Shown here: positions 1,303 to 43,854 of the stretch, piece after piece
How positions within the stretch are numbered: position 1 is the stretch's first letter
Layout: each line of letters starts with the position of its first letter
DNA from: an uncultured Oscillospiraceae bacterium
GTDB lineage: Bacteria > Bacillota > Clostridia > Oscillospirales > Oscillospiraceae
Length of the DNA: 61,952 nucleotides
Direction of reading: 5' to 3'
NCBI GenBank assembly: GCA_944386985.1
Contig: CALXDD010000013.1
Location: 1 to 61,952 of the forward strand
The notes under the pieces: model-generated
What the model was told of the DNA's origin: nothing
The model's database searches: none
What the model saw: the letters and a program-made list of their open reading frames with translations, nothing else
Program-made: the position numbers and the translations under genes

Positions 1303-1340
1303 AAAAGCGCCCCGCCCTGCCGCAAGGCAGAGCGGGGCGC
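1303..1340 (-). terminator. intrinsic terminator of the nucleosidase-SLH gene
   Basis: Minus strand: a 15-bp GC-rich stem (1307-1340) with a 4-base loop, followed by TTTT. It lies just past the stop of the gene ending at 1363. Confidence 0.85.
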
Positions 1341-1362: not shown

Positions 1363-3489
1363 TTACTTGGCGATACTGTCGCCAAAGCGCACCAGCATCA
1401 TAGCCACCTGGGCACGGCTGGCGCCGGTCTTGGGGCTGAGGGTGCCGTCGGTCATACCGCTCACGATGCCCTCGGCCACAGCCCAGGACATGGCGTCGGC
1501 GGCGTAGCCGCCCACAGAAGCGGCATCGGAGAACTGATCCAGCGCGGCAGCGGCGGTGGTGTCCTCCTTCATGAACTGGGCGTAGCGGTACAAAATCACC
1601 GCCAGCTGCTCACGGGTGATGGCCTGGTTGGGGGCGAAGGTGCCGTCCTCATAGCCGGTGACAACGCCGTTGGCGCTGGCCCAGGCCACTGCGTCGGAGT
1701 AATACTTGCCCTCGGCCACGTCGCTGAAGGAAGCGGCCGCAGTCCCCTCGGGCTCTCCGGCCATGCGGTAGAGCATGGTGACGATCATAGCCCGGGTGGT
1801 GGTGCCGTTGGGGGAGAAGGTGGTGTCGCTGGTGCCGGACATGAGTCCGCTGGTATAGACCTCGCTGACAGCGGTGTAGTACCAGCTGGTATTGGCCACA
1901 TCGGTGAAGGGCAGCTCAGTGCCCAGAGTCTTCAGCATCTCCATCACCACAGAAGCGGAGGTGTTGGAAGCCTCGGTGTAGTTGAAAGCATAGGTGTCGT
2001 GGGCCAGGCCGTCGGCCTTGTCAGACATGCAGCGGATCACGGTGCAGGGCACGCCGAACTGGTCGCACACCCGGGCTACGGAACCGCCCTCCATTTCGCA
2101 GGCCAGGGCGTTGAACTTGGTCTGGAGCTCCTTGACATAGCTCTCGCTGGCCACGAACTGGTCGCCGGTGGCGATGACGCCCTGGTGGACCTTCTCCGCG
2201 CCCAGCACGCTGCAGGCGGAGTCATAGGCCAGCTTGGACAGGGTGGGATCCACGGGGATCATGCCGGTCTCCTGGTCGGCGGCAGCCTCACCGTTCCAGA
2301 CGAAGCCGTCATTGGTCTCGGTGCCGTAGTCGTGCTGGACCAGGGCGGTGCCGATGACCATATCCATCACGTTGACCTCGTCGCCCACGCCGCCGGCAAT
2401 GCCGGTGAAGATCACGCCGGTGACAGTGAAGTTGTTCAGCAGAGCGGCGGTGCAGGAGGCGGCCAGCACCTTGCCGATACCAGCCTGGACCAGCACCACG
2501 TCCTCGCCGTTGAGGGTGCCCACATAGAAGGTGTTGCCGCCAATGACGGTCTCCTTCTCAATGTCAGCGGCCTTCACCAGAGCGTCCAGCTCCACAGCCA
2601 TGGCGCTGATGACGGCGGTGCGGGGAGTGGTGTCCTTCACAGCCTCGTCCTTGGCGGGGGTGAGAGTGGTGCCGGAGGCAGCCATGGTCTCCAGCATCTT
2701 CATCACCACGGAGGCGGAGGTGTTGGAGGCCTCGGTGTAGTTGAAAGCATAGGTGTCGTGGGCCAGGCCGTCAGCCTTGTCGGACATGCAGCGGATCACC
2801 GCGCAGGGTACGCCGAACTGGTCGGCCACCCGGGCTACGGAACCGCCCTCCATTTCGCAGGCCAGGGCGTTGAACTTGGTCTGCAGCTCCTTGACATAGC
2901 TCTCGCTGGCCACGAACTGGTCGCCGGTGGCGATGACGCCCTGATGGACCTTCTCAGTCCCCAGCACACTGCAGGCGGAGTCATAGGCCAGCTTGGACAG
3001 GGCGGGGTCCACGGGGATCATGCCGGTCTCCTGGTCGGCGGCAGCCTCGCCGTTCCAGACGAAGCCGTCATTGGTCTCGGTGCCGTAGTCGTGCTGAACC
3101 AGGGCGGTGCCGATGACCATGTCCATCACGTTGACCTCATCACCCACGCCGCCGGCAATACCGGTGAAGACGATGCCGCCCACATGGTAGGTGTCGATAA
3201 GAGTCTCCGCGCAGGAGGCGGCCAGCACCTTGCCGATGCCGCCCTTCACCAGCACCACGTCCACTCCGCTGAGAGTGCCCACATAGTAGGTGGTTCCGGC
3301 GATAGTGTCCTTACGGGAAACCTCGGCGGCCTTCACCAGAGCGTCCAGTTCCACGTCCATGGCACTGATGATGCCAAGGGGCGCGGATTCAGCCTTGGCG
3401 TCATCGGCCAGCGCCGTGGTGACGCTCAGCGACAGCACCATCGCCAGTGCAAGCACCAGCGCGGCTGCCTTCTTACAAAAATGTCCCAT
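1363..3489 (-). CDS. secreted double MTA/SAH nucleosidase with SLH domains
   Basis: 708 residues. A Sec signal peptide (residues ~1-29, cut near TALADD) precedes two tandem MTA/SAH-nucleosidase (PNP/UDP family) domains at ~37-268 and ~291-521. Three SLH repeats (~525-582, 585-645, 650-705) follow and should anchor the protein to cell-wall polymers. Each nucleosidase copy keeps the E. coli MTAN triad by motif: E47, E214, D237 and E300, E467, D490, with the same 23-residue gap between the last two as in E. coli. The two copies are almost identical over their central and C-terminal parts. Ordinary MTAN is cytosolic, has one domain of about 230 residues and cleaves MTA, SAH or 5'-deoxyadenosine. 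An extracellular double copy would act on exported or environmental nucleosides. Start: GGGAGG Shine-Dalgarno 6 bases upstream. Confidence 0.92.
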   Translation of the reverse strand: MGHFCKKAAALVLALAMVLSLSVTTALADDAKAESAPLGIISAMDVELDALVKAAEVSRKDTIAGTTYYVGTLSGVDVVLVKGGIGKVLAASCAETLIDTYHVGGIVFTGIAGGVGDEVNVMDMVIGTALVQHDYGTETNDGFVWNGEAAADQETGMIPVDPALSKLAYDSACSVLGTEKVHQGVIATGDQFVASESYVKELQTKFNALACEMEGGSVARVADQFGVPCAVIRCMSDKADGLAHDTYAFNYTEASNTSASVVMKMLETMAASGTTLTPAKDEAVKDTTPRTAVISAMAVELDALVKAADIEKETVIGGNTFYVGTLNGEDVVLVQAGIGKVLAASCTAALLNNFTVTGVIFTGIAGGVGDEVNVMDMVIGTALVQHDYGTETNDGFVWNGEAAADQETGMIPVDPTLSKLAYDSACSVLGAEKVHQGVIATGDQFVASESYVKELQTKFNALACEMEGGSVARVCDQFGVPCTVIRCMSDKADGLAHDTYAFNYTEASNTSASVVMEMLKTLGTELPFTDVANTSWYYTAVSEVYTSGLMSGTSDTTFSPNGTTTRAMIVTMLYRMAGEPEGTAAASFSDVAEGKYYSDAVAWASANGVVTGYEDGTFAPNQAITREQLAVILYRYAQFMKEDTTAAAALDQFSDAASVGGYAADAMSWAVAEGIVSGMTDGTLSPKTGASRAQVAMMLVRFGDSIAK
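1927..3381 (-). repeat. tandem duplication of the nucleosidase domain (period 759 bp)
   Basis: Two units, 2686-3381 and 1927-2619, encode the same domain with a 253-residue period. Long stretches match even at third codon positions (compare 2000-2390 with 2760-3150), while the first ~60 residues of each unit have diverged. This pattern suggests a duplication later homogenised by gene conversion. Confidence 0.88.
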
Positions 3490-3524
3490 TACAAAAACCT
3501 CCCTCGAAAGTATTGGGTCCTTTC

Positions 3525-3553
3525 ATTCTACACGGTTCGCCCTATTCTTGCAA
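3525..3553 (-). promoter_or_regulatory. promoter of the nucleosidase-SLH gene
   Basis: Minus strand: TTGCAA (3548-3553), 17-base spacer, TAGAAT (3525-3530), about 36 bases before the start codon. Confidence 0.65.
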
Positions 3554-3602
3554 GGATATTCCAGCATTTTCTAATTTTTCTCAGGGGCGGTCCACAGACA
3601 GC

Positions 3603-3632
3603 AAAAAGCCTGCGGCAAAGCCGCAGGCTTTT
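3603..3632 (-). terminator. secG terminator
   Basis: AAAAGCCTGCGGC-TTT-GCCGCAGGCTTTTT on the minus strand, immediately after the secG stop. A-rich and T-rich flanks make it usable in both directions. Confidence 0.88.
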
Positions 3633-3656
3633 CTCTCTATCATTGCGGGGCGCCTG

Positions 3657-3884
3657 TTACTGAAGGATGCTCAGCACCAGGGTCAAGACCAGGAACAGCG
3701 CACCCACCCACTTGGTCCAGCGGGCCAGCTTGGCGTCCAGGCTCTTGGCCTTGCTCTTGGCGAGAAATGTATCAGCCACACCGCCGATAGCGCCCAGGCC
3801 CTGGCTCTTGCCGCTCTGGAACAGAACCATCAGAATGATGACCAGGCCGACCAGCAGCTGGAGAATGGTGATAAACAGTGTCAT
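3657..3884 (-). CDS. secG: preprotein translocase subunit SecG
   Basis: 75 residues with two membrane helices (MTLFITILQLLVGLVIILMV and the C-terminal VGALFLVLTLVLSIL). Between them is the family loop with QSGKSQGLGAIGG. SecG sits beside SecYE and assists SecA-driven export. The start at 3884 is chosen because GGGAGG lies 8 bases upstream; a longer reading to 3941 lacks such a site and adds non-SecG sequence. It has its own promoter and terminator, so it is probably monocistronic. Confidence 0.93.
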   Translation of the reverse strand: MTLFITILQLLVGLVIILMVLFQSGKSQGLGAIGGVADTFLAKSKAKSLDAKLARWTKWVGALFLVLTLVLSILQ

Positions 3885-3949
3885 GACGAATAACCTCCCG
3901 TTGTTGTTGGAAACGTGAAAACACGCAATGATCCATTTCACAGGTAACC

Positions 3950-3978
3950 ATCATACCATAGAGCTTTCCCATTTTCAA
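3950..3978 (-). promoter_or_regulatory. secG promoter
   Basis: Minus strand: TTGAAA (3973-3978), 17-base spacer, TATGAT (3950-3955). Confidence 0.65.
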
Positions 3979-4047
3979 GAGGAATCTTTCCATTTTTCGG
4001 AGTTTTTCTGCCGTCCCGGAAATTTTCGGCGGAGAAGACTGCATCAT

Positions 4048-4061
4048 GGAACAATTGTTGC
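4048..4061 (+). promoter_or_regulatory. SOS (LexA/DinR) box, one half-site imperfect
   Basis: GGAACAATTGTTGC matches the Gram-positive GAAC-N4-GTTC core at seven of eight positions. It overlaps the lexA -35 element, which is the expected place for autorepression. Confidence 0.65.
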
Positions 4062-4086
4062 ATTTCCTGGGAATTTATGCTATACT
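4058..4086 (+). promoter_or_regulatory. lexA promoter
   Basis: TTGCAT (4058-4063), 17-base spacer, TATACT (4081-4086), 23 bases before the lexA start codon. Confidence 0.75.
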
Positions 4087-4109
4087 GACAAAAACGCAGG
4101 AGGTGCGGT

Positions 4110-4694
4110 ATGGGCAGAAAGAGCGATATGCAGGCGCGGATCTATGAGACCATCGTGCGGATGATCCAGGAGCAGGGGTATGCCCCCTCTGTGCGGGAGA
4201 TCGGAGAAGCGGTGGGCCTCAAGTCCCCCTCTACCGTCCACTTCCATTTGAAAAAGCTGGAGGAAGCGGGGCTCATTGAGAAGGGGGCCTGCAAGGGCCG
4301 GGCCATTGCCGTCAACGGCATTCAGGAGGACCGGATTCCCATTGTGGGCCATGTGGCGGCCGGCGCTCCCATTCTGGCCCAGGAGTGTATTGAGGACTAC
4401 ATCACCTTTGATACCCATGGCAGAGCGGGGGAGTTCTTTGCTCTGCGGGTCCGGGGCTACTCCATGAAGAATGCGGGCATTCTGCCCGGCGATCTGGTGG
4501 TGGTCCGCTGTCAGCCCACCGCCTCCTCCGGGGAGATCGTGGCGGCCCTTTTGGGGGAGGAGGCCACGGTCAAGCGCCTGAAGCTGGACCGGGGCCAGGT
4601 GTGGCTGATGCCGGAAAATGAGGACTTTGAGCCCATTGACGGTACGGAGGCCCGGATTTTAGGTAAGGTGACGGCGGTGATCCGCCAGTATTGA
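4110..4694 (+). CDS. lexA: LexA SOS repressor
   Basis: 194 residues. The N-terminal winged helix (residues ~1-65) carries the recognition segment APSVREIGEAVGLKSPSTVH. The C-terminal S24 self-cleavage domain has the Ala84-Gly85 scissile bond (HVAAGAP), Ser118 in GYSMKNAGI and Lys155 in EATVKRLK. It represses DNA-damage genes and cleaves itself when RecA* forms. A strong AGGAGGTG Shine-Dalgarno supports the ATG at 4110. The SOS box over its own -35 suggests autoregulation. A terminator follows the gene. Confidence 0.97.
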   Translation: MGRKSDMQARIYETIVRMIQEQGYAPSVREIGEAVGLKSPSTVHFHLKKLEEAGLIEKGACKGRAIAVNGIQEDRIPIVGHVAAGAPILAQECIEDYITFDTHGRAGEFFALRVRGYSMKNAGILPGDLVVVRCQPTASSGEIVAALLGEEATVKRLKLDRGQVWLMPENEDFEPIDGTEARILGKVTAVIRQY

Positions 4695-4709
4695 GCATGC
4701 GGCGGGAAG

Positions 4710-4743
4710 GCGTCCGATCCGAAGGAAGGTCGGGCGCTTTTTT
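4710..4743 (+). terminator. lexA terminator
   Basis: GCGTCCGA(T)CC pairs with GGTCGGGCGC, followed by TTTTTT. Confidence 0.85.
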
Positions 4744-4835
4744 CTGTCAGACCTTTTCGAAACGGCGGGATTTCAAAGGCAGGCAGGGAAAGGGTTCGCT
4801 TTGGCGGAGGAATATAAAAGGAGAGGTGGGGAAAG

Positions 4836-5228
4836 ATGCAGCAGTCGGAATACTATGAGGGGGATGTGCTGGCGTATTTCAGTGAGAGGCCCCAGGAGCT
4901 TGCGCTGTATGAGGAGTTCTCTGCCGCCTTGGATCGTATGCTGCCGGAGGCCTCCGTCAAGGTGCAGAAAAGCCAGATCAGCTTCTATGGCCGCCGCCTG
5001 TTTGCCGCGGTCTCCCTGCCATACCGCCGGAAGAAGGGATGGCCGGAGCACTGCCTCCTGGTGACCTTCGGGCTGCCTGAGCGGCTGGACGATTCCCGGA
5101 TCGCCGCGGCGGCGGAGCCCTATCCAAACCGCTGGACCCACCATGTGGTGGTCTCCCGGCCTGGGGAGATCGACGGACAGCTGATGGCATGGGTTCGGGC
5201 GGCCTACGAATTTTCCCAGAACAAATGA
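4836..5228 (+). CDS. DUF5655 domain protein
   Basis: 130 residues, soluble, no signal peptide. The C-terminal part (PNRWTHHVVVSRPGEIDGQL..WVRAAYEFS) matches what I know of DUF5655, a small domain of unknown activity. The N-terminal half reads as a helical substrate-binding-like segment with a conserved KVQKSQISFYGRR stretch. GGAGAGG lies upstream of the ATG. It lies 33 bases ahead of the YaiI-family gene on the same strand, so the two are probably co-transcribed. Confidence 0.75.
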   Translation: MQQSEYYEGDVLAYFSERPQELALYEEFSAALDRMLPEASVKVQKSQISFYGRRLFAAVSLPYRRKKGWPEHCLLVTFGLPERLDDSRIAAAAEPYPNRWTHHVVVSRPGEIDGQLMAWVRAAYEFSQNK

Positions 5229-5261
5229 GAGGAACCCAGCGGGGAGAGAGGAGGAGCGGCC

Positions 5262-5711
5262 ATGCGGGTGCTGATCGACGGCGACGGCTGTCCGGTGGTG
5301 GATCTCACTGTGCGGATTGCGGGGGAGTACGGTGTGGCCTGCCTGATCCTCTGCGACACCGCCCATGAGATATGGCGGCCCGGCGCGGAGACCATGGTGG
5401 TCTCCAAGGGGGCGGACAGCGTGGATTTTGTGCTGGTGAACCTGCTCAAACCGGGGGACGTGGTGATTACCCAGGACTACGGGCTGGCCGCCCTGTGCCT
5501 GGCCCGGGGCGCCCGGGTCCTCCGGCAGGACGGCATGGCGTATACCGATGAGAACATCGGCGGCCTTCTGCTGGCCCGCTGTACCGCCGGGAAGATCCGC
5601 CGGAGCGGCGGGCGGCTGAAAGGCCCAAAAAAGCGGACCCGGGATCAGGACGCCGCCTTTGCCTCTGCACTGCGGTGCATATTTGCGGAACAGAAGACAG
5701 GGCGGGAGTGA
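5262..5711 (+). CDS. YaiI/YqxD (UPF0178, DUF188) family protein
   Basis: 149 residues, the usual family length. Family hallmarks are the N-terminal DGDGCPV, the central SKGADSVDFVLVNLLKPGDVVITQDYGLAAL, and the C-terminal GPKKRTRDQDAAF. The acidic residues (D7, D9 and the QDYGLA aspartate) resemble a PIN-like metal site, so nuclease activity is often suspected but is not established here. It appears to be second in a two-gene unit ended by the hairpin at 5771. Confidence 0.9.
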   Translation: MRVLIDGDGCPVVDLTVRIAGEYGVACLILCDTAHEIWRPGAETMVVSKGADSVDFVLVNLLKPGDVVITQDYGLAALCLARGARVLRQDGMAYTDENIGGLLLARCTAGKIRRSGGRLKGPKKRTRDQDAAFASALRCIFAEQKTGRE

Positions 5712-5770
5712 GAGAGCGGCAAATTCCTTGTGCCTTCCTATATTTCATACAGCTTTGCGGATTGCGTGGA

Positions 5771-5802
5771 AAGAGCCGACCCAGACTTGGGCCGGCTCTT
5801 TG
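5771..5802 (+). terminator. terminator after the YaiI-family gene
   Basis: AAGAGCCG(a)CCCA pairs with TTGGGCCGGCTCTT, followed by TGCTG. It also falls near the end of the convergent gene at 5864. Confidence 0.7.
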
Positions 5803-5863
5803 CTGCATATGGGAAAATTACCACTGCTGTATATGGACGGGAGAAAAAATTGATTTCCGCGGA

Positions 5864-6931
5864 TCAATGCTCCAGATAGGCCTTTCTGCTGGCCTCGTAC
5901 AAAGCGGCACGGAACACGTCAGATTCGGCAAAGTTGCTGGTGAATACATATTTGCCGGGGGTATTGTACTTGGCTACCAGGTCCTTGGCTGCCTGAATCT
6001 GCACATCATCGGGGGTATCCGGCGGGAACATGGGAGCGCGTACGCCCAGTTTGATCTTATCACCATACTCCGCGTACATCTTTGCAATGTCGTTCATGGG
6101 CTGAGGACGCCACATATCAATGCCGATGGAGCTGATAACATCAATCATAGAATCGGTGCGGCCGCAGGAGTGGAGCTCGAAAATGACGCCGTTTTCATGG
6201 CAGTGGTCCACCAGGCGCTTGACATAGGGTGCGATCATCTCCAGCCAGGTCTGCTTGGAGAAGAAGGGGGAGCGCTGGGAGCCCCAGTCATCGTGGAAGA
6301 GATAGCCGGAGATGTGGAAGTACTGAATGCACTTGTCCAGAATTTGAATGTACAGGTCGGTCAGCGCACTGAACAGCTCCTTGACCGCGTCCATCTGCTC
6401 CTCATCAATCAGGGCTACCGCCGCATTTTCAAAGTCCATGAAAGAAATCAGACGCTCAAACATACCGGAGAACTGAACGGTCCAAATGGGGTCGTCACCG
6501 GCCAAATAGTCCTTATTCCGCTTGGCGGAGCCCGCCCAGTCCCAGCTGTCCACGTCGGGGAAGTGAATAACTTCCTTCCAGTCGTTGGCATCGTCCAGAA
6601 TGGGGTTGCCGGGGATGACCATGGAGCCGCCGGCGGAGTCCTCATAGACCCACTGCACACCAAACATGTCGGGGCCGCCCTTACGATCGGTGGGATCGGC
6701 CTCCTGAACGAAGGCGCGGGCCACATTGTCGGGAATGATCTCCGGCGTAATGGTGATGAGGTCGCCGTTCGGCATCCAGCAGGGGGTTTCATTGTTGAGG
6801 AAGGCGCGCATATTTTCCAGAGAGGAGATGGGTGTCTTGAACTTCGCCTTGCCGCCGTCAGTCCGGCCAGCCACATAATACCGGTCGATAATGGTCAGTT
6901 CATCTTTAGAAAAGGGATACTTTTTCATCAT
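5864..6931 (-). CDS. URO-D family (MtaA/CmuA-like) protein A
   Basis: 355 residues with a uroporphyrinogen-decarboxylase-type TIM barrel. It resembles the methylcobalamin:CoM methyltransferase (MtaA/CmuA) branch rather than HemE. Visible motifs are IPDNVARAF, PDMFGVQWVYED, a HDDWGSQRSPFFS segment, and ELHSCGRTD, whose His-x-Cys pair corresponds to two zinc ligands of MtaA. The third, distal Cys ligand of MtaA is not visible; the equivalent C-terminal region reads FTSNFAES. It is downstream of the GPH transporter with a 45-base gap, so it is probably in one operon. AAGGAG precedes two adjacent ATGs (6931 and 6928). The substrate is unknown; a methylated compound is plausible by family. Confidence 0.85.
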   Translation of the reverse strand: MMKKYPFSKDELTIIDRYYVAGRTDGGKAKFKTPISSLENMRAFLNNETPCWMPNGDLITITPEIIPDNVARAFVQEADPTDRKGGPDMFGVQWVYEDSAGGSMVIPGNPILDDANDWKEVIHFPDVDSWDWAGSAKRNKDYLAGDDPIWTVQFSGMFERLISFMDFENAAVALIDEEQMDAVKELFSALTDLYIQILDKCIQYFHISGYLFHDDWGSQRSPFFSKQTWLEMIAPYVKRLVDHCHENGVIFELHSCGRTDSMIDVISSIGIDMWRPQPMNDIAKMYAEYGDKIKLGVRAPMFPPDTPDDVQIQAAKDLVAKYNTPGKYVFTSNFAESDVFRAALYEASRKAYLEH

Positions 6932-6976
6932 ACTTCTCCTTATTTACATAGATGTTTGACGTGTACAGGTCGAAAA

Positions 6977-8362
6977 TCAATGCTGGGCTGCCTCTTTCCG
7001 CTTGGTCAGATCTTCCTGCATTTCCTGGATACGCTTATCGGTCAGGGGGAACAGGAACATGGCAACGACGGACAGAGCGGCCAGGGCTGCGGGCAGACCG
7101 GACAGCAGAATCCGGATGCCGTCGGCGGCCTGGGCGGTGACATTGGACTGATCAAAGCCGATGGCAACGAGACCAAAGCCCATGACAGCAGAACCTACAG
7201 TAGTGCCGATCTTGGGAGTCAGGGAGAACAGAGTCATCATGAAGGGCTTCAGATTGCGGTCATGCTTCCACTGAGTGTAATCCACCACAGCGGAGTAGAG
7301 AGCGACCTCAGAGGCGTGGGCGATGGCGTAGCCCACATAGCCGATGCTGAGGAAAACGGTAAAGCTAACAGCAGTTGTACCGAGGAAATAGGCCAGTCCC
7401 AGGCACAGGCCATAAATGGCGATGCCGGCGGCGAAGGTGTTTCGGGTGCCCCGGAAGAGCTTGTTGGCATAGGGGGTCAGGAAGGAGCCGCCGATCATCA
7501 GGAAGGTAGAGGCGGACATGTACCAGGTCAGCATGGATTTGTCGCCGACGACATAGCTGTAGAAATAGGGTGCCAGACCGGTAATGATGAAGAAGATGCT
7601 GCCCTTGCACACAGAGCCCAGAAGGTAGAGCAGGAAGGGTTTGGAAATGGTGAACTTGATCATTTCCCAGACAGAGGCGGAGTACTGGTCCTTCTTCCCC
7701 TTGCCGGCAGAGGTGCTGACATCCAGCACGTCGTAGTTCTTGGAGGCAAAGTACAGCTGGCCGAAACCGAAGACCACCAGCAGGGAAATCAGACCGGCCA
7801 GAGCACAATAGCCTCGGGCGTCGTTCCCCTGGCCGAACACCGACACCAGCGTCACAGAGGTGAGGGAGAAGAGAAACTTGCCGATGGAGTTGCAGGTGGT
7901 GCGGGCGGAAGCAAAGGCCACGCGGTCACCGGGGGTCTTGGCCATCAGCGGCAGGATACCGGTGAAAGCGGAGTAAGCCATATTGAAGACCACATAAGCC
8001 AAAATATAGGTACCGCCGAACCAGATCGCGGCGCCCATCCCGGTCAGCCCCAGGTCAGTAAAGCTGAGCCAGCGGAACAGGGCGGCCAGTACGCCGCCAA
8101 TCAGCAGCCAGGGGCGGAAGATACCAAATTTGCCGCCCTTGATCCGGGTTTTCTGCAAGACCACGCCGCAGATCGGAATGGAGATCAGATCCACGACGCT
8201 GCTGGCAGACATGATGACGGCCATGGCGGCCGTCTCCAGTCCGACGGCGCCGGTGAGGTAAATGGACCAATAGGTGGTTGCGACGGTTGTCAGCAGGGTG
8301 GAGAAGCCGTTGGTCATGCCGTAGCGGAATGCAAGACCGGAGTACGTGGAAGTTTTACCCAT
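6977..8362 (-). CDS. GPH-family (MFS) sugar/solute:cation symporter
   Basis: 461 residues with about 12 hydrophobic helices. The N-terminus (LAFRYGMTNGFSTLLTT.ATTYWSIYLT) and the conserved GKFGIFRPWLL loop are typical of the glycoside-pentoside-hexuronide:cation symporter family (MelB, GusB, XynB). It would import a small solute in symport with Na+ or H+. Next to a URO-D-family protein and under a divergent GntR regulator, it likely carries the substrate of this catabolic locus. AGGAGG is upstream of the ATG, and a consensus-like promoter lies at 8497-8526. Confidence 0.9.
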   Translation of the reverse strand: MGKTSTYSGLAFRYGMTNGFSTLLTTVATTYWSIYLTGAVGLETAAMAVIMSASSVVDLISIPICGVVLQKTRIKGGKFGIFRPWLLIGGVLAALFRWLSFTDLGLTGMGAAIWFGGTYILAYVVFNMAYSAFTGILPLMAKTPGDRVAFASARTTCNSIGKFLFSLTSVTLVSVFGQGNDARGYCALAGLISLLVVFGFGQLYFASKNYDVLDVSTSAGKGKKDQYSASVWEMIKFTISKPFLLYLLGSVCKGSIFFIITGLAPYFYSYVVGDKSMLTWYMSASTFLMIGGSFLTPYANKLFRGTRNTFAAGIAIYGLCLGLAYFLGTTAVSFTVFLSIGYVGYAIAHASEVALYSAVVDYTQWKHDRNLKPFMMTLFSLTPKIGTTVGSAVMGFGLVAIGFDQSNVTAQAADGIRILLSGLPAALAALSVVAMFLFPLTDKRIQEMQEDLTKRKEAAQH

Positions 8363-12739: not shown

Positions 12740-13117
12740 ATGGAGCAGAATGTGACCCTCTCCCACAGCGAGTGGAGGATCATGCAGGAGATCTGGAAGC
12801 GCGGGACCGCCACCTTCCGGGAGATCTGCGACGGCGTGGCGGAGCAGAACTGGAGCAAGCCAGCGGTGGCGGCCTTTCTCAAGCGGATGGAGAACAAGGG
12901 AGCCATTGCCTGTGAGGAGGCGAAGCCGGTGAAACTCTACCGGCCTCTGATCCAGAAGGAGGCGGCGGTGCAGGAGGAGACCCGGCAGATCCTGGGGCGG
13001 GTGTACGGCGGGGACGTGGCGTTGCTGGCCCAGTCCCTGGTGCGCTCCCAGGCTTTGGACGACGGGGAGATGGCGGAACTGATCGCCCTTTTGCAGAAGG
13101 GGAGGGAGGAGCCGTGA
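12740..13117 (+). CDS. BlaI/MecI/CopY-family repressor
   Basis: 125 residues. The N-terminal winged helix (LSHSEWRIMQEIWKRGTATFREICDGV) includes the WSKPAVAAFLKRMENKG recognition segment. The C-terminal helix for dimerisation carries the LAQSLV..ALDDGEMAELIALL heptad pattern. Repressors of this family are cleaved when a partner M56 membrane peptidase senses an extracellular signal. That partner is the next gene, overlapping by 4 bases (GTGA). Two dyads flank the promoter and predict autoregulation of the whole operon. Confidence 0.92.
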   Translation: MEQNVTLSHSEWRIMQEIWKRGTATFREICDGVAEQNWSKPAVAAFLKRMENKGAIACEEAKPVKLYRPLIQKEAAVQEETRQILGRVYGGDVALLAQSLVRSQALDDGEMAELIALLQKGREEP

Positions 13118-14943
13118 CAGACTGGATGGAGACGCTCTTGCAGATGAGCATTCAGGGGGCGGCGCTCATTGCAGCGCTGCTGGTTCTGCGCAGGCTGTTT
13201 CAGAGGAGAGCCGCCCCCACGGTCCTCTACGCCTTGTGGCTTCTGCCCGCGGCGCGGCTGCTGATTCCCGGCAGCATTCCCAGTGTGTGGTCCCTCCAGA
13301 ATTTGTTCTCTCCGGCGGTAGAGCAGAGGGCGGCGGCTGTGCTGCGCCAGCCGGTGGTACAGGGGCCGCTGCCTGCAGCGACGGCCCCACCGGCGGCGGA
13401 GGTATCGGCTGCGGTAGTACAGACCGGGGCCTCCTTTTCGGTGGGGAGCCTTTTGGCGGTCCTCTGGGCGTTGGGAGCGGCGGCAGTTTTGCTGGCCGCA
13501 CTGTGGAAAAATCTTACGTTTCTTCGCCGGGTGCGCCGGGGTGCGGTGCGGGTGGAGACGGACTGCGCCCTTCCGGTGTATCTCAGCGAGCACCTGGCCT
13601 CCCCCTGCCTCTGCGGCCTTTTCCGCCCTGCCATCTACCTGGGGGACGAGGCACTGGAGAGCCAGACCCACTTGGGGCTGGTTCTCCGCCATGAGCTGGC
13701 CCACTACCGCTCCGGGGATCGGTTCTGGGCGCTGCTCCGGCTTTTGTGCTGTGCCGTCCACTGGTTCAATCCCCTGGTGTGGATAGGGACACGGGCCGCT
13801 GTGGAGGACTGCGAGCGGGCCTGTGACCACCGGGTCCTCCGCCGCTCCAGCCAACAGGAACGGGAGACCTACGGCCTGATGCTGCTCTCCTATTTGAAAA
13901 AGCCCCGGGAGCAAAGCGGAGTGCTGACGGTCAGTTCCACCATGGGCGGCCGGGCACTTCGAGGCCGCATCGCCTTGATCGGCCGGCGGCCCGCCGTGAA
14001 GAAGACCGCTGCCGCGGCGCTGGCCGCTCTGACGGCACTGGCGGTCCTGGTGGCCTGCACCGGGCGGATGGCGGAGGAGAAGGCGGAGGGACTCCAACGC
14101 CTGGCGCAGCTGGCGGAGGAGGGCACCACGGCGGAGGGGGTGGAGCTCCCAGGCGGCGGGTCGTACGGCACCGCCTCCGGCCAAACCTTTGGCGCGTACC
14201 TGGACTCCCTTAACTGGGCGGAGGCGGACCAGCTTCAGCCGGAGCAGCTGGAGCCCCAAATGGAGGTCCGGCTTACCGGCGCTGACGGGACCCTCCTGGG
14301 AACGCTGCAGTTCCTCACTGACCGGGAAACGGGGGCGTATTACGGCGCGGTGACGCTCTCCGGGGAGGATACGGCGGTGTATTACGCCGCCTCGGAGGAG
14401 GACGCCCAGACCGCCTGGGCCATGACCCAGCTCCAGGCGGAGGGGACCCTTCGCTCCGACCTGCCGGGCGGCGGGCAGATGGTTCTGGTCTCCTCCCCGC
14501 CCGCCCTTGGCAGCCAGCGGCACTGGCTGTTTTATACAGAGGACAGGGAGTGCTTTCTTCCCATCTCCAGTGACCTCAACGACGTCTACCCCCGGGTGGT
14601 GGAAAATATGCTGTTTCTCAGCGGTGAGGTGGGGTTTCTCTCCTTCCGGTTTGAGGAGATCAACGGCCTGCGGTCCCCCAATTTCTATCGCACCGAGGAC
14701 GGCGGGGCCACCTGGGAGCGGGTGGAGCTGCCCATGATGGACGTCACTACCGACAGCGGCTATACGGGGATGCATGTGACGGCCATGGAGTTTTCGGATG
14801 ACAGACGGGGCGTCGTCACCGTCAGCATGGCCCGGTGGGACGACAGCACGGCGGACACCCTGTCCTGCCTCTTCGTCACCGGGGATGGCGGCAGGACCTG
14901 GGGAACCGTCACCAGCGGCGGTCCGGCTGTTCAGGCGGACTGA
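13114..14943 (+). CDS. M56 (BlaR1/MecR1-like) membrane peptidase with Asp-box C-terminal domain
   Basis: 609 residues from a GTG start overlapping the repressor stop. Membrane helices lie around 15-30, 36-52, 108-130, 205-225 and 292-312. The zinc peptidase motif HELAH is at 193-197 with the downstream acidic ligand in EDCERACDH (~E234). After the last helix, about 290 residues face outside. There the penicillin-binding sensor of true BlaR1 is absent; instead two Asp-box/BNR-like motifs appear (RTEDGGATW ~530, VTGDGGRTW ~590), suggesting a beta-propeller-like or carbohydrate-contacting domain. It probably senses an envelope signal and inactivates the BlaI-type partner by proteolysis. Confidence 0.88.
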   Translation: MTDWMETLLQMSIQGAALIAALLVLRRLFQRRAAPTVLYALWLLPAARLLIPGSIPSVWSLQNLFSPAVEQRAAAVLRQPVVQGPLPAATAPPAAEVSAAVVQTGASFSVGSLLAVLWALGAAAVLLAALWKNLTFLRRVRRGAVRVETDCALPVYLSEHLASPCLCGLFRPAIYLGDEALESQTHLGLVLRHELAHYRSGDRFWALLRLLCCAVHWFNPLVWIGTRAAVEDCERACDHRVLRRSSQQERETYGLMLLSYLKKPREQSGVLTVSSTMGGRALRGRIALIGRRPAVKKTAAAALAALTALAVLVACTGRMAEEKAEGLQRLAQLAEEGTTAEGVELPGGGSYGTASGQTFGAYLDSLNWAEADQLQPEQLEPQMEVRLTGADGTLLGTLQFLTDRETGAYYGAVTLSGEDTAVYYAASEEDAQTAWAMTQLQAEGTLRSDLPGGGQMVLVSSPPALGSQRHWLFYTEDRECFLPISSDLNDVYPRVVENMLFLSGEVGFLSFRFEEINGLRSPNFYRTEDGGATWERVELPMMDVTTDSGYTGMHVTAMEFSDDRRGVVTVSMARWDDSTADTLSCLFVTGDGGRTWGTVTSGGPAVQAD

Positions 14944-15071: not shown

Positions 15072-17282
15072 ATGCGACATTGGCATGGAAAGAACCGTAG
15101 GGGAAGGCGGAGATGGGCCGCGCTACTGGCCTTTGTGATGGCGCTGTCCCTTATGGCGCCCCTGAGCGGCTGCGGCAAAGATGGCCAGGAGCCGGGACCG
15201 GATGTGGATCAGCCCGTAGACAGTGACGGGGCGGTGGCCGCCCTGACGCGTATGCTCCTGCTGGATTTCAGTGGTATCAAGGAGAGCAGTGTGACGCCCT
15301 CCGTACCGGCCTATCAGGTAAACCAGGACCTCTCCAATGTGGTCAATCAGGAGCAGTTTTATCTCTCCGACAGCCAGAAAGCGATGCTGGCGAAAAATAT
15401 GTTTGTGGTGAGCTCCAGCTACTACAACGAGTTTTTCGAGCAGTATGAGACCAATCGCTACGATCAGATCCCTAATTTCATCACGGTGGATTCCATGATG
15501 CACACCTACCACCTCTACTTCAGCCTGCTCCTGAACCGCACGGAGAAGAACTACCTGGCGGCGGATCTGGCAAAGCTGAGCGGCGCCATGCTGGAGGCTG
15601 CCGGGGCCCAGTATGAGGCGCTCAAGGGGACGGACTGGGAGGAGGCCGCCCGGCGAAGCGTGGCCTTCTTCGCCGTGGGCGCCAAGCTCCAGGATGAGGG
15701 CGCTGCCGTGCCCGACTATGCCGCCGATCTCGCGGACACGGAGCTGGAGCGGATCTATGCGGCCCAGGGCATCGAAGTCTCTCCTCTGGCGGAGGACAAC
15801 ATGGACTACACCCAGTACATCCCCCGGGGCTACTATGAGGGCGATCCGGTGCTGGAGGCATACTTCCGGGCCATGATGTGGTATGGACAGGTGAACTTTG
15901 TCCAGAAGAACGACGACCTCACCAGGGCTGCCCTGCTGATCACACTGACGCTGATGGATTCCAGCGAGGCCTGGGAAAATCTCTATGCGGTGACCTCCTT
16001 CTTTGCCGGCGCCAGCGATGATCTGGGATATTATGACTACGCCCCCGCTGTGGTGGCGGCCTACGGCCAGGTGCCCACCACCTCCCAGCTGACGGCGGAG
16101 GAGGAGAACTACAAGACTTTCAAATCTCTGGTGGAGAAGATGGACCCGCCGGCCATCAACTCCGTGCCGGTGTGGGACGATCCCAACGATCCCTCCGAGG
16201 TAGGGGATGTGCTGGAGTCCAAGAAGGGCTTCCGCTTCATGGGACAGCGCTTCACCATTGACGCTGCCATCATGCAGCAGCTGGTCTATCGGGCGGTGGA
16301 AGAAGCTGACAACGGGGACAAGCGGCTGCTGCCGGATACTTTGGACGTACCGGCGGCCTTGGGCTCTGAGGCGGCTCTCAACATCCTCAAGGACCAGGGG
16401 GTTACCCAATACCCCAACTACATGGAGCAGATGGAGACCCTCCGCGATCAGGTGGAGAAGGCCCCCGTCTCCAGCTGGACCTCCAGCCTCTACTCCAGCT
16501 GGCTCTATACCCTGACGCCGGTGCTGGAGGCCAAGGGGGAGGGCTGGCCCTCCTACATGACCAGCGAGGAGTGGCAGAAGAAGGCTCTGGAGACCTTTGC
16601 CGGCAGCTACACGGAGCTCAAGCATGACACCGTGCTCTACGCCAAACAGGTGATGGCGGAGATGGGCGGCGGTCCGGAGGACGTCGTGGACGACCGTGGT
16701 TATGTGGACCCGGAGGTGGACGTCTATGAGCGCTTCGCCCTGCTGGCCCAGCAGACAGCAGACGGCCTTGATAAGCTGGGCTATCTGGGCGACAGTGACC
16801 GGGAGAATCTGTCCCGTCTGGCGGAGCTGGCAAAGCAGCTGGTGACCATTTCTGAGAAGGAGCTGCAAAACGAAACGCTTACAGACGAGGAGTATGAGCT
16901 GATTCGCAGCTACGGCGGCACCCTGGAGCACTTCTGGACCGAGGCGGTCAAAGATAAGGCGGCTACAGACTATCTGGCTGCCCAGGAGATCCCCTCCTCT
17001 CTGGTCACGGACATCGCCACAGATCCCAACGGCACGGTACTGCAGGTGGCCACCGGCCGCCCGGCGGAAATCCTGGTGGTGGTGCCGGTGGACGGGACAT
17101 TGCGCATTGCCTCCGGCGTGGTCTATGACTTCTATCAGTTCACCCAGCCCATCAGCCAGCGCCTCACCGACACCCAGTGGCGGCAGATGATCGGCCAGTG
17201 GGCCAACGACGACGGCAGCTACAACTGGGATGCCAAGGTGGAGAAGCCCCAGTGGACCCAGAGCTACTGGAGTGAGGAATGA
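15072..17282 (+). CDS. DUF3160 lipoprotein
   Basis: 736 residues. An Arg-rich N-terminus, hydrophobic core and lipobox LSGC (Cys ~34) mark it as a membrane-anchored lipoprotein. The body matches DUF3160: NFITVDSMMHTYHLYFSLLL near residue 135, a RFMGQRFTIDAAIMQQLVYR block near 390 and a C-terminal DTQWRQMIGQWANDD. No enzymatic role is known for the family, and the mostly helical extracellular fold is unassigned. It lies 128 bases after the M56 peptidase gene and overlaps the next gene by 4 bases, so it may be an output or partner of the BlaI/M56 sensor. Confidence 0.85.
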   Translation: MRHWHGKNRRGRRRWAALLAFVMALSLMAPLSGCGKDGQEPGPDVDQPVDSDGAVAALTRMLLLDFSGIKESSVTPSVPAYQVNQDLSNVVNQEQFYLSDSQKAMLAKNMFVVSSSYYNEFFEQYETNRYDQIPNFITVDSMMHTYHLYFSLLLNRTEKNYLAADLAKLSGAMLEAAGAQYEALKGTDWEEAARRSVAFFAVGAKLQDEGAAVPDYAADLADTELERIYAAQGIEVSPLAEDNMDYTQYIPRGYYEGDPVLEAYFRAMMWYGQVNFVQKNDDLTRAALLITLTLMDSSEAWENLYAVTSFFAGASDDLGYYDYAPAVVAAYGQVPTTSQLTAEEENYKTFKSLVEKMDPPAINSVPVWDDPNDPSEVGDVLESKKGFRFMGQRFTIDAAIMQQLVYRAVEEADNGDKRLLPDTLDVPAALGSEAALNILKDQGVTQYPNYMEQMETLRDQVEKAPVSSWTSSLYSSWLYTLTPVLEAKGEGWPSYMTSEEWQKKALETFAGSYTELKHDTVLYAKQVMAEMGGGPEDVVDDRGYVDPEVDVYERFALLAQQTADGLDKLGYLGDSDRENLSRLAELAKQLVTISEKELQNETLTDEEYELIRSYGGTLEHFWTEAVKDKAATDYLAAQEIPSSLVTDIATDPNGTVLQVATGRPAEILVVVPVDGTLRIASGVVYDFYQFTQPISQRLTDTQWRQMIGQWANDDGSYNWDAKVEKPQWTQSYWSEE

Positions 17283-28620: not shown

Positions 28621-30513
28621 TCAATAGACCAAAAAGCCGGTGTTGACCAGGACATTGCAGAGGGTGGCCGCCGCCTGCTCCCGCAGGATGGGGGCTTGGG
28701 GGTCGATAGCGGAGATGTCGTCGTAGAGCAGGCTGATGGGGGTTCCATTGATGTCGGTGATCATATCGGTCAGCATATCCACACTGGCTCTGGCCCAGTC
28801 GGAATAGGCCGCCAGAGCGGGGGAGGCGTCCAGCGCGGCCTGATCCTGGTTGTTGGCGTACTCATAGGCGCTGACGTTGAGAAAGGAGGCCAGACGGCCC
28901 ATGATGGTGAAAAACTCCTGGTTGGACATAGTGGCATAGGGGTCGAAGACGCCGCCCTCCTTGCCGGTGACCAGTTCCATGGCGGCCATGGCGTTGACGC
29001 TGCCGGCAAACCACTTCCCAGAGGGCACGTCGGAGAAAATATCCTCTCCGGAGTAAGTGATGCCGAAGGTCTGGGCCAGCAGGGCGCAGACCTCCGCCCG
29101 GGTGATGGTGCTCTGGGGGCGGAAGGAGCCGTCCTCATCCCCGTTGAGAATGCCGTAGGTGGCGAGGGTATTGATCTCCCCGGCATAGTCGCTGCCGGAA
29201 ACGTCGTCAAACCAGCGGCAGTAGTCCTGGGCGTCATAAAGCGTCAGGGCCATAGCGGTGGTGATGGGTACCCACGCGCCGTTGCTCCCCAGCCATATCG
29301 CTGCATCCGGGGCCAGCGCCCCCAGGATCACCTGGAGGGTATCCCCCTGGCAGGCGGCGGGATCAAGGTAGAAATCCCAGCCCGCCAGCGTTAGCTTCAG
29401 CTGGCCGTCGGGGCGCTGGGGCTCCTCGGTGCACAGGGCCAGAGCGATGGTCATGGCGTCGGCGTCGTTGACCAGCAATGTAGGGATCACGCCGATCTTG
29501 TCGGTGGTGTTGCCTGCCTCAGTGTAAAAACGGTAGGCGGTGATTTTCAGGCTGTCGCCGTCAAAGAGGTCCGGGTTGGTGCTCTCGTCCAGCACGATCT
29601 GGGCCACTCCCTTGCCGAAGGTGCGGGTGCCCACGGAGATGCCTGCCCGGGCGTCCCGGATATCCCCGGCGAAGACCTCGGAGGCGCTGGCGGAGTAGGG
29701 ATCGGTGAGGACGATCACCGGATCGGCGGTGAGATAGTCCTCAAAGTAGATAGAGTAGTAATATGTACCGGCCTGGTCCCGGAGGTACAGCAAAAAGCCG
29801 CTGCCGGTAAAGGCTCCGGTAGCCTCCACGGCGGAGTTGGTGGCGCCGCCCGGGTTGCTGCGGAGGTCCACAATCCAGATCCGGGCGTCGTCGTCATATT
29901 TTTGAATTCCCTCGGCAAAATAGGCGCCGGTCTGGGAGCCGAAGCTGTTGCAGTCGATATAGCCGACCCCGTTTTCCAGAAGCTCTGTTTCCGTGTTGTA
30001 GATGACGATGGTCTTGCGCAGAATGCGGTAGTCCTGTACCGTTCCGTCGGCGTGGCGGACAGTGACGTTGACATAGGTGCCCTCCTCGCCCACAATCATG
30101 GAGCGGTGGGCCTCCCCGGCGGGAACGCAGCTCTCCCCCTCAATCGCGATGATGAGGTCCCCGGACACAAGGCCCGCATCTTCCGCACCGGAGCCGGAGA
30201 GAATGTCCATCAGCAAAATGCCGTCATCTGTGTATTGGATGGAAGCGCCGATGCCGGTGACGGTCTCGGTGCCCTCCACGCTGCTTAGAAAGGCCTGATA
30301 TTCCTCAGCGGACATGTAGTAGGTATAGGGATCGCCCACGATGGCAAACAGCTCCTCCAGACTCTGGGCATCATAGGCCTCGGCGGGAATGGGGTTGACG
30401 TAGTTTTCCTCCAGCAGGTCCAGGGCCTGCTCCACCGTCAGGGCGGAGGCGGAGGCAGTCAGAAGGCCGATGACGCACAGTGCGGCCAGAAGCCGGCGGA
30501 TCAAGTGTTTCAT
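28621..30513 (-). CDS. secreted S41 (CtpA-type) protease with SLH domains
   Basis: 630 residues. Signal peptide (~1-24), PDZ-like domain (~80-165), then S41 protease core (~175-345) with the Ser/Lys dyad S276 (SASASE) and K301 (TFGKG) plus Q305. This is the same spacing as in CtpB. After a linker, SLH repeats run from ~440 to 630 (first: YAGEINTLATYGILNGDEDGSF; then KWFAGSVNAMAAMELVTG). It probably processes exported proteins while tethered to the wall. It has its own promoter and terminator. Confidence 0.92.
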   Translation of the reverse strand: MKHLIRRLLAALCVIGLLTASASALTVEQALDLLEENYVNPIPAEAYDAQSLEELFAIVGDPYTYYMSAEEYQAFLSSVEGTETVTGIGASIQYTDDGILLMDILSGSGAEDAGLVSGDLIIAIEGESCVPAGEAHRSMIVGEEGTYVNVTVRHADGTVQDYRILRKTIVIYNTETELLENGVGYIDCNSFGSQTGAYFAEGIQKYDDDARIWIVDLRSNPGGATNSAVEATGAFTGSGFLLYLRDQAGTYYYSIYFEDYLTADPVIVLTDPYSASASEVFAGDIRDARAGISVGTRTFGKGVAQIVLDESTNPDLFDGDSLKITAYRFYTEAGNTTDKIGVIPTLLVNDADAMTIALALCTEEPQRPDGQLKLTLAGWDFYLDPAACQGDTLQVILGALAPDAAIWLGSNGAWVPITTAMALTLYDAQDYCRWFDDVSGSDYAGEINTLATYGILNGDEDGSFRPQSTITRAEVCALLAQTFGITYSGEDIFSDVPSGKWFAGSVNAMAAMELVTGKEGGVFDPYATMSNQEFFTIMGRLASFLNVSAYEYANNQDQAALDASPALAAYSDWARASVDMLTDMITDINGTPISLLYDDISAIDPQAPILREQAAATLCNVLVNTGFLVY

Positions 30514-36084: not shown

Positions 36085-37578
36085 TTATTGCTTGGCCGCA
36101 GTCTCCCGGGCCAGCTCCACCACTGCGTCGATGGTGGCCGCCCGGGCGATCTTCACAGCCATGCCGTGGCGTTTCGCCTCAGCGGCGGTCTGCTCCCCGA
36201 TGCACAGGGCAGTGAAGCGGGAAAAATCTGCGTCCGCCCCCACAGAGGACACCAGTCCCTTGACAGTGGAGGCGGAAGTGAAGGTGACAAAGGGCACCTC
36301 CCCTGCCTCCAGGGCGGTCCGCAGCTCCTCCGACCGGGGATTTTCATACACGGTCTTATACACCGGGATATCGTCATAGGCAATGGTACGCTCTTTGAAG
36401 GCCTCTGTCAAGGCGGGAGAGCCGATCTCCGCCCGGAGGATCAGCACCTTGCCGTCGGCGGGGAGGCCCGCCCCTAAATGGGCGGCGTCGTAGACCTCCG
36501 GAATGTAATCTGCCATAAGGCCCATGTCCCGGAGGGCCTGAGCGGTGCCGGCGCCGATGGCCGCCAGCTTCACAGAGGCGAGATACCGTCCATCCTTCCC
36601 CATGCGCTGGAGCTCCTTGCGGAAGGCGGCCACCCCGGCGGGACTGGTGAACACCAGCCACTGGTAGTCGCCAAGGTGCTCCAGCGCCACGGTCATGGAG
36701 GGGCAGGGGCGGATGGCCCTGGTCTCGATGCAGGGATATTCCCACACGTCGGCCCCCAGGGTCCGCAGCTTTTCCGAGAGGGTGCCCGCCCGGTCCTTCG
36801 GCCGGGTCACCAGCACCCGCTGTCCCTTCAGGGGCAGCTGATCGAACCAACAAAATTTCTCGCTGAGGGCGCATACCTTCCCTACAATGATGATGGCGGG
36901 GCTGTGGATGCCCATCTCCGCCGCACGCTGGGGGAGGGTACGGAGGGTGGCGTCGCACCGGCGCTGAGCGGGGGTGGTGCCGCTTTCCACCATGGCGGCG
37001 GGGGTGTCGCCGTCCATACCGGCGGAGAGGAGTCCCTCCACAATGGCGGGCATAGCGGTGACGCCCATGAGGAATACCAGAGTGCCCTTCGTCCGCACCA
37101 GAGCCTCAAAGTCAATGGTGAGAGGCTTGCCTGCCCGCTGGTGTCCGGTGATGATGTGGACAGAGGAGCAGTAGTCCCGGTGAGTCACCGGGATGCCAGC
37201 GTAGGCGGGGGCGGCAATGGCGGAGGTAATGCCGGGGATCTCCTCAAAGGGGACGCCGTGCTCCACCAGCAGCTCCAATTCCTCGCCGCCCCGGCCGAAG
37301 ACAAAGGGATCGCCCCCCTTGAGCCGTACCACATTGTGGCCCTTCAGAGCCTCGTCCAAGAGAATCTGGTTGATCTGCTCCTGGGGTACCTTGTGGTGGG
37401 CCGCCTCCTTGCCCACGTCGATGGCCTTGGCCCCCTGGGGGATCAACGCCAGAATGGCGGGGCTCACCAGCCGGTCGTACACCACCACCTCCGCTGCTTC
37501 AATGGCCTTCCGGCCTTTCTGGGTGAGAAGGCCCGGATCGCCGGGACCCGCGCCCACCAGGGTTACTTTACCGCCCAT
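36085..37578 (-). CDS. cobA-hemD: fused uroporphyrinogen-III C-methyltransferase / uroporphyrinogen-III synthase
   Basis: 497 residues. Residues 1-~245 are the SAM-dependent SUMT (VTLVGAGPGDPGLLT, LKGGDPFVFGRGGEE, PVTHRDY..HIITGH), which makes precorrin-2. Residues ~255-497 are HemD (RVLVTRPKDRAGTLSEKL, FTSPAGVAAF, FTSASTV), which closes and flips ring D. The fusion couples ring closure to methylation and sends flux to sirohydrochlorin and B12 rather than heme. It overlaps hemC by 16 bases. Confidence 0.96.
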   Translation of the reverse strand: MGGKVTLVGAGPGDPGLLTQKGRKAIEAAEVVVYDRLVSPAILALIPQGAKAIDVGKEAAHHKVPQEQINQILLDEALKGHNVVRLKGGDPFVFGRGGEELELLVEHGVPFEEIPGITSAIAAPAYAGIPVTHRDYCSSVHIITGHQRAGKPLTIDFEALVRTKGTLVFLMGVTAMPAIVEGLLSAGMDGDTPAAMVESGTTPAQRRCDATLRTLPQRAAEMGIHSPAIIIVGKVCALSEKFCWFDQLPLKGQRVLVTRPKDRAGTLSEKLRTLGADVWEYPCIETRAIRPCPSMTVALEHLGDYQWLVFTSPAGVAAFRKELQRMGKDGRYLASVKLAAIGAGTAQALRDMGLMADYIPEVYDAAHLGAGLPADGKVLILRAEIGSPALTEAFKERTIAYDDIPVYKTVYENPRSEELRTALEAGEVPFVTFTSASTVKGLVSSVGADADFSRFTALCIGEQTAAEAKRHGMAVKIARAATIDAVVELARETAAKQ

Positions 37579-43619: not shown

Positions 43620-43806
43620 CCTATCGCTCGTAGAGTTAGTGGGCGTGATCCGAGGCAGGTATTCCGACTTGGGTTCATCGTCTTGCCGCGTCTTCCCGGT
43701 TTCCCAGTGACATCTGTGCGGCAAAGCTCCTCCTTACGGCAGCGGGACTGTGTGGGAATTTCACCCAGCTTCCCTTTTCATCCCCCAAACGGGGGCAACC
43801 TCGGAC
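43620..43806 (-). promoter_or_regulatory. cobalamin riboswitch (cbiMNQO operon)
   Basis: Minus strand: P1 pairs TCCGAGG (43799-43805) with CCTCGGA (43649-43655). Inside are the B12-box elements GTGAAATTCCCACACAG, CCCGCTGCCGTAA, GTCACTGGGAAACCGGGAAG and GTCGGAATACCTGCC. A downstream stem (to ~43620) probably forms P13 and the loop contact. It lies between cbiK and cbiM. No clear intrinsic terminator follows, so control may act on translation. Confidence 0.93.
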
Positions 43807-43854
43807 CTTTGTATATGGAAACGGGACAGCGTCCCGGATTCCCTCTTTTTTATG

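Follow-up and report, generated by a model that had tools for sequence, protein, structure and literature searches.

Why should a nucleosidase that normally works in the cytosol appear as a tandem pair that is probably bound to the cell wall? This question is raised by a gene in the 61,952-nucleotide stretch of DNA that we analysed as a whole (hereafter the window; contig CALXDD010000013.1 of assembly GCA_944386985.1, from an uncultured Oscillospiraceae bacterium). The gene (positions 1363-3489, minus strand; an open reading frame (ORF) with an ATG start, annotated with Pfam and NCBIfam) encodes a 708-aa protein that is predicted to be exported and that joins two domains of the 5'-methylthioadenosine (MTA)/S-adenosylhomocysteine (SAH) nucleosidase family, MTAN, to S-layer homology (SLH) repeats. 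With a probability of roughly 0.6, we consider it a wall-bound pseudo-dimeric MTAN that acts on 5'-modified adenosines outside the cell. In what follows, the gene, its domains, active-site residues, clade and constraint are read from the sequence, while export, fold and packing are predicted.

We began with the identity of the protein. Pfam recognised two PNP_UDP_1 stretches (E 3.1e-94) and three SLH repeats (E 5e-40), and the MTAN equivalog NF004079 scored 415.3 bits over the whole protein (both domains summed; cut-off 169) and 216.4 and 212.8 bits over the single domains, each above the cut-off; TIGR01704 gave 212.6 bits (again the sum of both domains) against a cut-off of 73.8. Placed by these models and by motifs, domain 1 spans residues 38-269 (positions 2683-3378, minus strand; E47, E214, D237) and domain 2 residues 291-522 (1924-2619, minus strand; E300, E467, D490). 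All six residues stand in the expected motifs, and the MTAN catalytic residues Glu12, Glu174 and Asp197 (E. coli numbering) are matched in both domains. The earlier note on this DNA, which had proposed two complete MTAN domains with intact catalytic triads on SLH anchors, was right on the domains, the triads and the SLH repeats. The futalosine hydrolase model TIGR03664 exceeded its cut-off (174.5 versus 124.7 bits) only as the sum of the two domains, and reached 84.6-100.4 bits, under that cut-off, on the three single-domain clade relatives scanned. Models for purine and uridine phosphorylases stayed far under their cut-offs (e.g., 73.6 versus 230 and 23 versus 262 bits) and were rejected, as was a phage origin: a search of 50,697 phage records gave 20 matches, all below 60% identity, with no single place covering 80% of the query. 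VIA and Foldseek matched each half of the predicted structure to single MTAN chains. By sequence and predicted fold, then, the protein is a variant MTAN. An overlapping ORF lies on the plus strand (1999-3663), and for the minus-strand ORF pairwise dN/dS values are 0.07-0.33 across both MTAN domains; purifying selection acts on both of them.

The location of the protein was judged from its two ends. Signal peptides and lipoboxes were called by eye throughout, without a signal-peptide predictor. The N-terminus, MGHFCKKAAALVLALAMVLSLSVTTALA followed directly by DD, has KK at residues 6-7, an A-L-A site and a hydropathy that peaks at 2.9 over 12 residues, and thereby resembles a Sec-type signal peptide of residues 1-28 (positions 3406-3489, minus strand) with cleavage between ALA and DD, in keeping with the export signal claimed earlier. 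At the other end, profile matches place SLH repeats 1, 2 and 3 at 1789-1911, 1600-1731 and 1402-1533 (all minus strand). The genome (83 contigs, 95.5% complete) contains 55 SLH matches spread over 25 open frames, as well as a 737-aa protein (L063 1309-3522, minus strand) in which a CsaB domain is fused to an N-terminal glycosyltransferase (TIGR03609, 241.3 bits versus a cut-off of 213.1); CsaB-type pyruvyl transferases serve SLH anchoring.

Four further PF01048 genes were found in the same genome, namely one uridine-phosphorylase-like, two DeoD-like (named by eye) and one 229-aa MTAN. The last (L057 1694-2846, minus strand) has no signal peptide and is directly followed by luxS (Pfam LuxS, 148.2 bits); it scores 94.3 bits with TIGR01704 (above 73.8) and 147.7 with NF004079 (below 169). 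On this gene content the exported tandem is distinct from the housekeeping enzyme, a separate cytosolic MTAN beside luxS. Exported MTANs have precedents in Borrelia and Aeromonas, so that export as such is less exceptional than the earlier note had implied.

Does the arrangement recur in other genomes? Four of 46 candidate stretches in our named collection are relatives. Two of them, from a Dysosmobacter metagenome-assembled genome (MAG; L007) and a Clostridia MAG (L008, treated as one locus with L106 of genome G1399), have the same tandem + SLH order, with three and two SLH stretches, respectively, so the joining of two PNP/UDP domains to SLH, part of the combination to which the earlier note pointed, is found elsewhere in Clostridia. 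The other two are a fragment at a contig end (L009) and a match through the SLH part only (L010). Searches with domain 2 matched 6 of 400 genomes of the family (the window's own included; of these, G012 is not a clade member and G004 counts through its loop only) and 4 of 391 of the class (again with its own; G772 lies outside the clade). A clade profile at E <= 1e-60 matched 3 of 151 genomes in the family of G613, one of them a fragment, 1 of 3 in the order of G484, and 1 of 398 of the phylum, which is the window's own. The genome samples overlap between the genus, family, class, order and phylum searches, and a family-wide search with the whole protein, swamped by SLH matches, was excluded from the counts. 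By these searches the exported-MTAN clade is real but rare.

Members of this clade appear to reach the surface in different ways. Single-domain members with a lipobox are L012/L056, L014/L051, L049/L053 and L059; in L048/L052 the single MTAN is preceded by a Cu_amine_oxidN1 domain (116.6 bits) as well as a signal peptide; and L107 (G1536) has a signal peptide, two MTANs and an N-terminal region without a Pfam match that by eye resembles the Cu_amine_oxidN1 type. We therefore predict a Clostridia MTAN clade that is exported with different anchors, i.e., SLH tandems, lipoproteins and a copper-amine-oxidase-type domain.

Phylogeny groups these proteins consistently. The clade was recovered with support of 100/100 in a 69-row tree (15 clade rows from 11 genomes) and of 100/97 in a 17-row tree (13 clade rows), for which the program flagged long branches in the rows outside the clade. 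In both trees the domain 1 rows form one group (95/91 with 17 rows, 93/98 with 69 rows), and the domain 2 rows do so at 80/90 in the larger tree; in the smaller one, three of the latter cluster at 99/97, with the domain 2 of the window unplaced. Since domain 1 rows and domain 2 rows each come together, the duplication probably predates the divergence of the tandem-SLH species. The two domains of L107 are unplaced relative to those of the SLH tandems. An order-wide search with NF004079 matched 174 of 325 genomes at E <= 1e-20, and among the matches listed we read 70 loci, the 30 best and 40 selected, in most cases, because their open frame was long (two of these 40 duplicate genes already among the 30 best, and short open frames were mostly left unread), with the MTAN located by pattern matching in 56 of the 70 and by BLAST in the other 14. 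Export signals were seen in four of the 70, the clade members L106 and L107 and two lipoprotein-type MTANs with an ordinary loop, L076 (1498-2334, minus strand) and L105 (1402-2187, plus strand). Because these latter two lie outside the clade in the 69-row tree, MTAN export probably arose more than once.

The same comparisons bear on whether the protein is cytosolic after all, or the tandem an artefact of assembly or annotation. The genome is a draft, near-identical repeats can mislead an assembly, and in genome G302, where the gene stands at the same site, the contigs end within domain 1 and resume within the SLH region. A break there is as expected at a repeat, and we infer that the G302 copy is a tandem as well. 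Against an artefact, the two domain copies differ at ~12.5% of bases overall, the same tandem + SLH order is found in L007 and L008, and each domain groups with its counterparts in the larger tree; against a cytosolic enzyme stands the signal peptide. We regard this explanation as highly improbable.

If the protein is an exported MTAN, what does it act on? A departure from ordinary MTANs lies in the loop after the HD motif. In both domains, the ordinary 5'-pocket loop without an insertion (as in E. coli and the other rows) is replaced by a clade-specific loop with an insertion, HDYGTETNDGFVW, identical in the two (domain 1, 3055-3093; domain 2, 2296-2334; both minus strand, from a motif scan with coordinates taken from the sequence). 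Its motif, HDYGxx[TS][NA][DE]GFxW, was worded after seeing these rows; all 15 clade rows have it and none of the 54 other MTAN rows does, a count that leaves out L055 and L060 (a fragment; both bear the motif), L057 and E. coli. In a six-frame scan of 145 loci and the window, every occurrence of the motif was in a locus of a clade genome; within L076-L145 it was confined to L106 and L107, with none in the 14 loci missed by the pattern picker. It picks clade members from sequence alone and is kept across three predicted anchor types. Every clade row that covers them retains the equivalents of E. coli A8, M9, E12, F151, E172, M173, E174, R193, S196 and D197 (one fragment lacks the A8, M9 and E12 region). 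The same ten residues are kept in the 54 other rows too, partly by construction, as these rows were mostly pattern-picked for some of them; several of the 14 pattern-missed loci differ at the first motif. A search of the loop fragment against the PDB gave weak general MTAN matches only, and 5b7g was not among the matches listed.

This pattern, a rebuilt loop beside retained base- and ribose-site residues, could mean that the enzyme, its chemistry unchanged, acts outside the cell on some nucleoside that is neither MTA nor SAH. The motif's distribution over the clade and the other rows, its absence from the overlooked loci and its persistence in both window domains and under three predicted anchors all speak for such a change. 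Yet the motif is post hoc, ordinary MTANs also differ among themselves at the positions of E. coli V102, F105 and P113, the ordinary loop as a whole varies among MTANs and lies outside the curated family definition, and NCBIfam ranks the protein as an MTAN. In MTAN structures the partner subunit contributes this loop to the 5' pocket, a role that the rebuilt loop would share. A changed substrate is a possibility that we consider somewhat less likely than not. As for the MTA and SAH proposed earlier, the retained triads agree with them, but the replaced loop, found throughout the clade, leaves them less sure.

The retained residues weigh also on the idea that the protein is mainly a binding protein or adhesin that has merely retained an enzyme fold. 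A precedent is Borrelia Bgp, which, according to excerpts of PMC7557402, combines glycosaminoglycan binding with nucleosidase activity, and the L055 member (genome G004) keeps the loop while lacking the N-terminal stretch that bears the first catalytic Glu. However, each of the 15 clade rows retains the catalytic residues wherever its coverage reaches them, and both domains are under constraint, so that an adhesin seems to us improbable. In the L055 stretch 2011-6967 (minus strand) this member, which also shows no signal peptide, lies 3 bases ahead of a fused SBP_bac_3/BPD_transp_1 protein and an ABC ATPase, with a STAS-like ORF (named by eye) upstream. This context hints, weakly, at a link to uptake, the copy being one without the first Glu and signal peptide.

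We then asked how the two domains might work together. MTAN is a homodimer with a shared active site. An AlphaFold2 model (model 2, alignment A4) had a predicted template modelling score (pTM) of 0.89 and a defined packing between domains 1 and 2, predicting that they pack in a fixed way; a solved tandem MTAN was not among the best 50 structure rows, which is no evidence of absence. The two halves also appear to have exchanged sequence. In the window, DNA identity between them is 75% over domain residues 1-78 and 95% over residues 79-218, and synonymous divergence (dS) falls from 0.40 to 0.19 between these segments; it falls likewise in L007 (0.79 to 0.40) and L008 (1.01 to 0.35), and hardly in L107 (0.33 to 0.31). 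We read the drop from residue 79 on, in the window, L007 and L008, as a mark of gene conversion covering the loop together with the active site's second half, to which stronger constraint may add.

Taken together, we propose that Sec would export the protein and that its three SLH repeats would hold it on the cell wall. There, the packing of the two MTAN domains would replace the usual homodimer within a single covalent chain, and the HDYG loop of each domain would contribute to the active site of its partner. Beyond the membrane, such an enzyme could hydrolyse the N-glycosidic bond of 5'-modified adenosines (MTA, 5'-deoxyadenosine, SAH or a relative), and the freed adenine might then be taken up. 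MTA and 5'-deoxyadenosine are by-products of the use of S-adenosylmethionine. Mutants unable to degrade the two compounds excrete them (excerpts of PMC8102628). Extracellular nucleosidase activity is the best reading of the sequence; the exact substrate is less certain because the 5' loop is rebuilt, and it is as parts of this best explanation that we infer the pseudo-dimer geometry, the activity, the substrate and adenine scavenging.

The same activity might, however, serve clearance, not nutrition, by destroying inhibitory or signalling nucleosides, the cell's own or a neighbour's. At more than 2 mM, MTA and 5'-deoxyadenosine are growth-inhibitory to two E. coli strains (excerpts of PMC10986504), and MTA has been raised as a possible signal in connection with the periplasmic Aeromonas enzyme (excerpts of the review PMC6302742); the patchy presence of the gene would also fit. 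On the other hand, no signalling gene was recognised beside the tandem-MTAN gene, and the products are identical in both roles, so genomics cannot separate them. We consider clearance rather unlikely; signal removal and adenine scavenging are both putative roles, as the earlier note had rightly marked them.

Several observations weigh against a wall-bound, pseudo-dimeric scavenging enzyme. A first AlphaFold2 model (model 1, alignment A3) reached a pTM of 0.58, with a Foldseek root-mean-square deviation (rmsd) of ~13 in many rows; we attribute the low pTM to single-domain rows split across the two halves of alignment A3, and for this split model 1 was set aside and model 2 used. No purine or pentose transporter adjoins the gene among its neighbours (Pfam, NCBIfam), and a sugar-transporter-type MFS_2 gene ~3.5 kb upstream (6977-8362) has no known tie to it. 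There is no Rfam match near the gene, and so no RNA control element was seen. In the genus, the domain 2 search matched 2 of 11 genomes, including the window's own. In the sister genome G303, lexA, secG and yhaM stand in the same order (YhaM ~90% and LexA 91% identical); the genome gave no MTAN match, and 185 bases separate yhaM from where the SecG match ends (L072 3316-3500, plus strand). On this comparison the gap is an empty site and the gene dispensable, as it is present in few genomes of the genus and missing at the same site in a close sister. In G304, G157 and G212, the fetched stretches hold a yhaM match but no secG match.

Beyond the single protein, the data could, speculatively, describe a distinct exported MTAN branch in Clostridia, with a 5' loop altered to fit some nucleoside that is neither MTA nor SAH, host-specific anchors and, in some lineages, covalent dimers with gene-converted halves. 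If true, the branch would point to modified adenosines outside the cell that these bacteria use or compete for. The main interest lies in the altered 5' loop and in the probably repeated transfer of MTANs to the surface. A clade of putatively wall-bound nucleosidases that use more than one type of anchor would suggest that such nucleosides are an extracellular resource or signal in Clostridia too, and the tandem MTAN-SLH protein offers a defined protein for testing that role.

The gene itself is flanked by secG and a yhaM-like gene (YhaM model 247 bits versus a cut-off of 460). A promoter-like site, TTGCAA-17-TAGAAT, lies 5' of the start codon (3525-3553, minus strand; a consensus match only), and an intrinsic-terminator-like hairpin lies 3' of the gene (1307-1340, minus strand; a consensus match, the region giving 2 such matches and shuffles 2.1). 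With these two elements, the gene is probably transcribed alone, as its own unit. Elsewhere in the window, a second SLH protein (28621-30513, minus strand) is an S41 peptidase with a PDZ match, and DUF3160 (683.4 bits) covers the greater part of a 736-aa protein (15072-17282, plus strand) adjoined by an M56 BlaR1-type peptidase (13114-14943). A cobalamin riboswitch (43637-43818, minus strand; Rfam RF00174, 109.1 bits) shares the window with cobalamin/tetrapyrrole genes at 36085-37578, 45937-47433 and 53030-54397.

How does the protein compare with known systems? With cytosolic MtnN/Pfs (NF004079, TIGR01704) it shares the predicted fold, the Glu/Glu/Asp triad and the base- and ribose-site residues, whereas it is predicted to be exported, is tandem-fused and putatively wall-anchored, and has its 5'-pocket loop replaced. 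Like other SLH-anchored surface proteins, it has a signal peptide (by eye), three SLH repeats and CsaB in its genome; unlike them, its cargo is a nucleoside-cleaving enzyme. We found no report pairing SLH with an exported MTAN in the literature searched, most subscription papers being outside its reach, and S-layer homology and nucleosidase occurred together only for an unrelated Ap4A enzyme (excerpts of PMC7549365). Bgp and MtnN of Borrelia burgdorferi, which are placed here from the literature and not in our trees, are also MTANs with signal peptides, Bgp being located on the surface; excerpts of PMC7557402 mention neither SLH nor a tandem. The periplasmic MTAN of Aeromonas hydrophila (PDB titles 5b7p/5b7q; excerpts of PMC6302742) is likewise exported and, with entries 5b7g/5b7n/5b7p/5b7q, shows the lowest rmsd to the model (2.1-2.2) among the best 50 rows. 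Against the clade profile, however, it scores 79.6 bits, compared with 164.8 bits for another A. hydrophila MTAN (6if8) in the same search. These scores do not support kinship with the periplasmic enzyme, and with the two so distant in sequence, export there probably had a separate origin. Exported MTANs are thus already known, and the tandem with SLH anchors is a new form of them.
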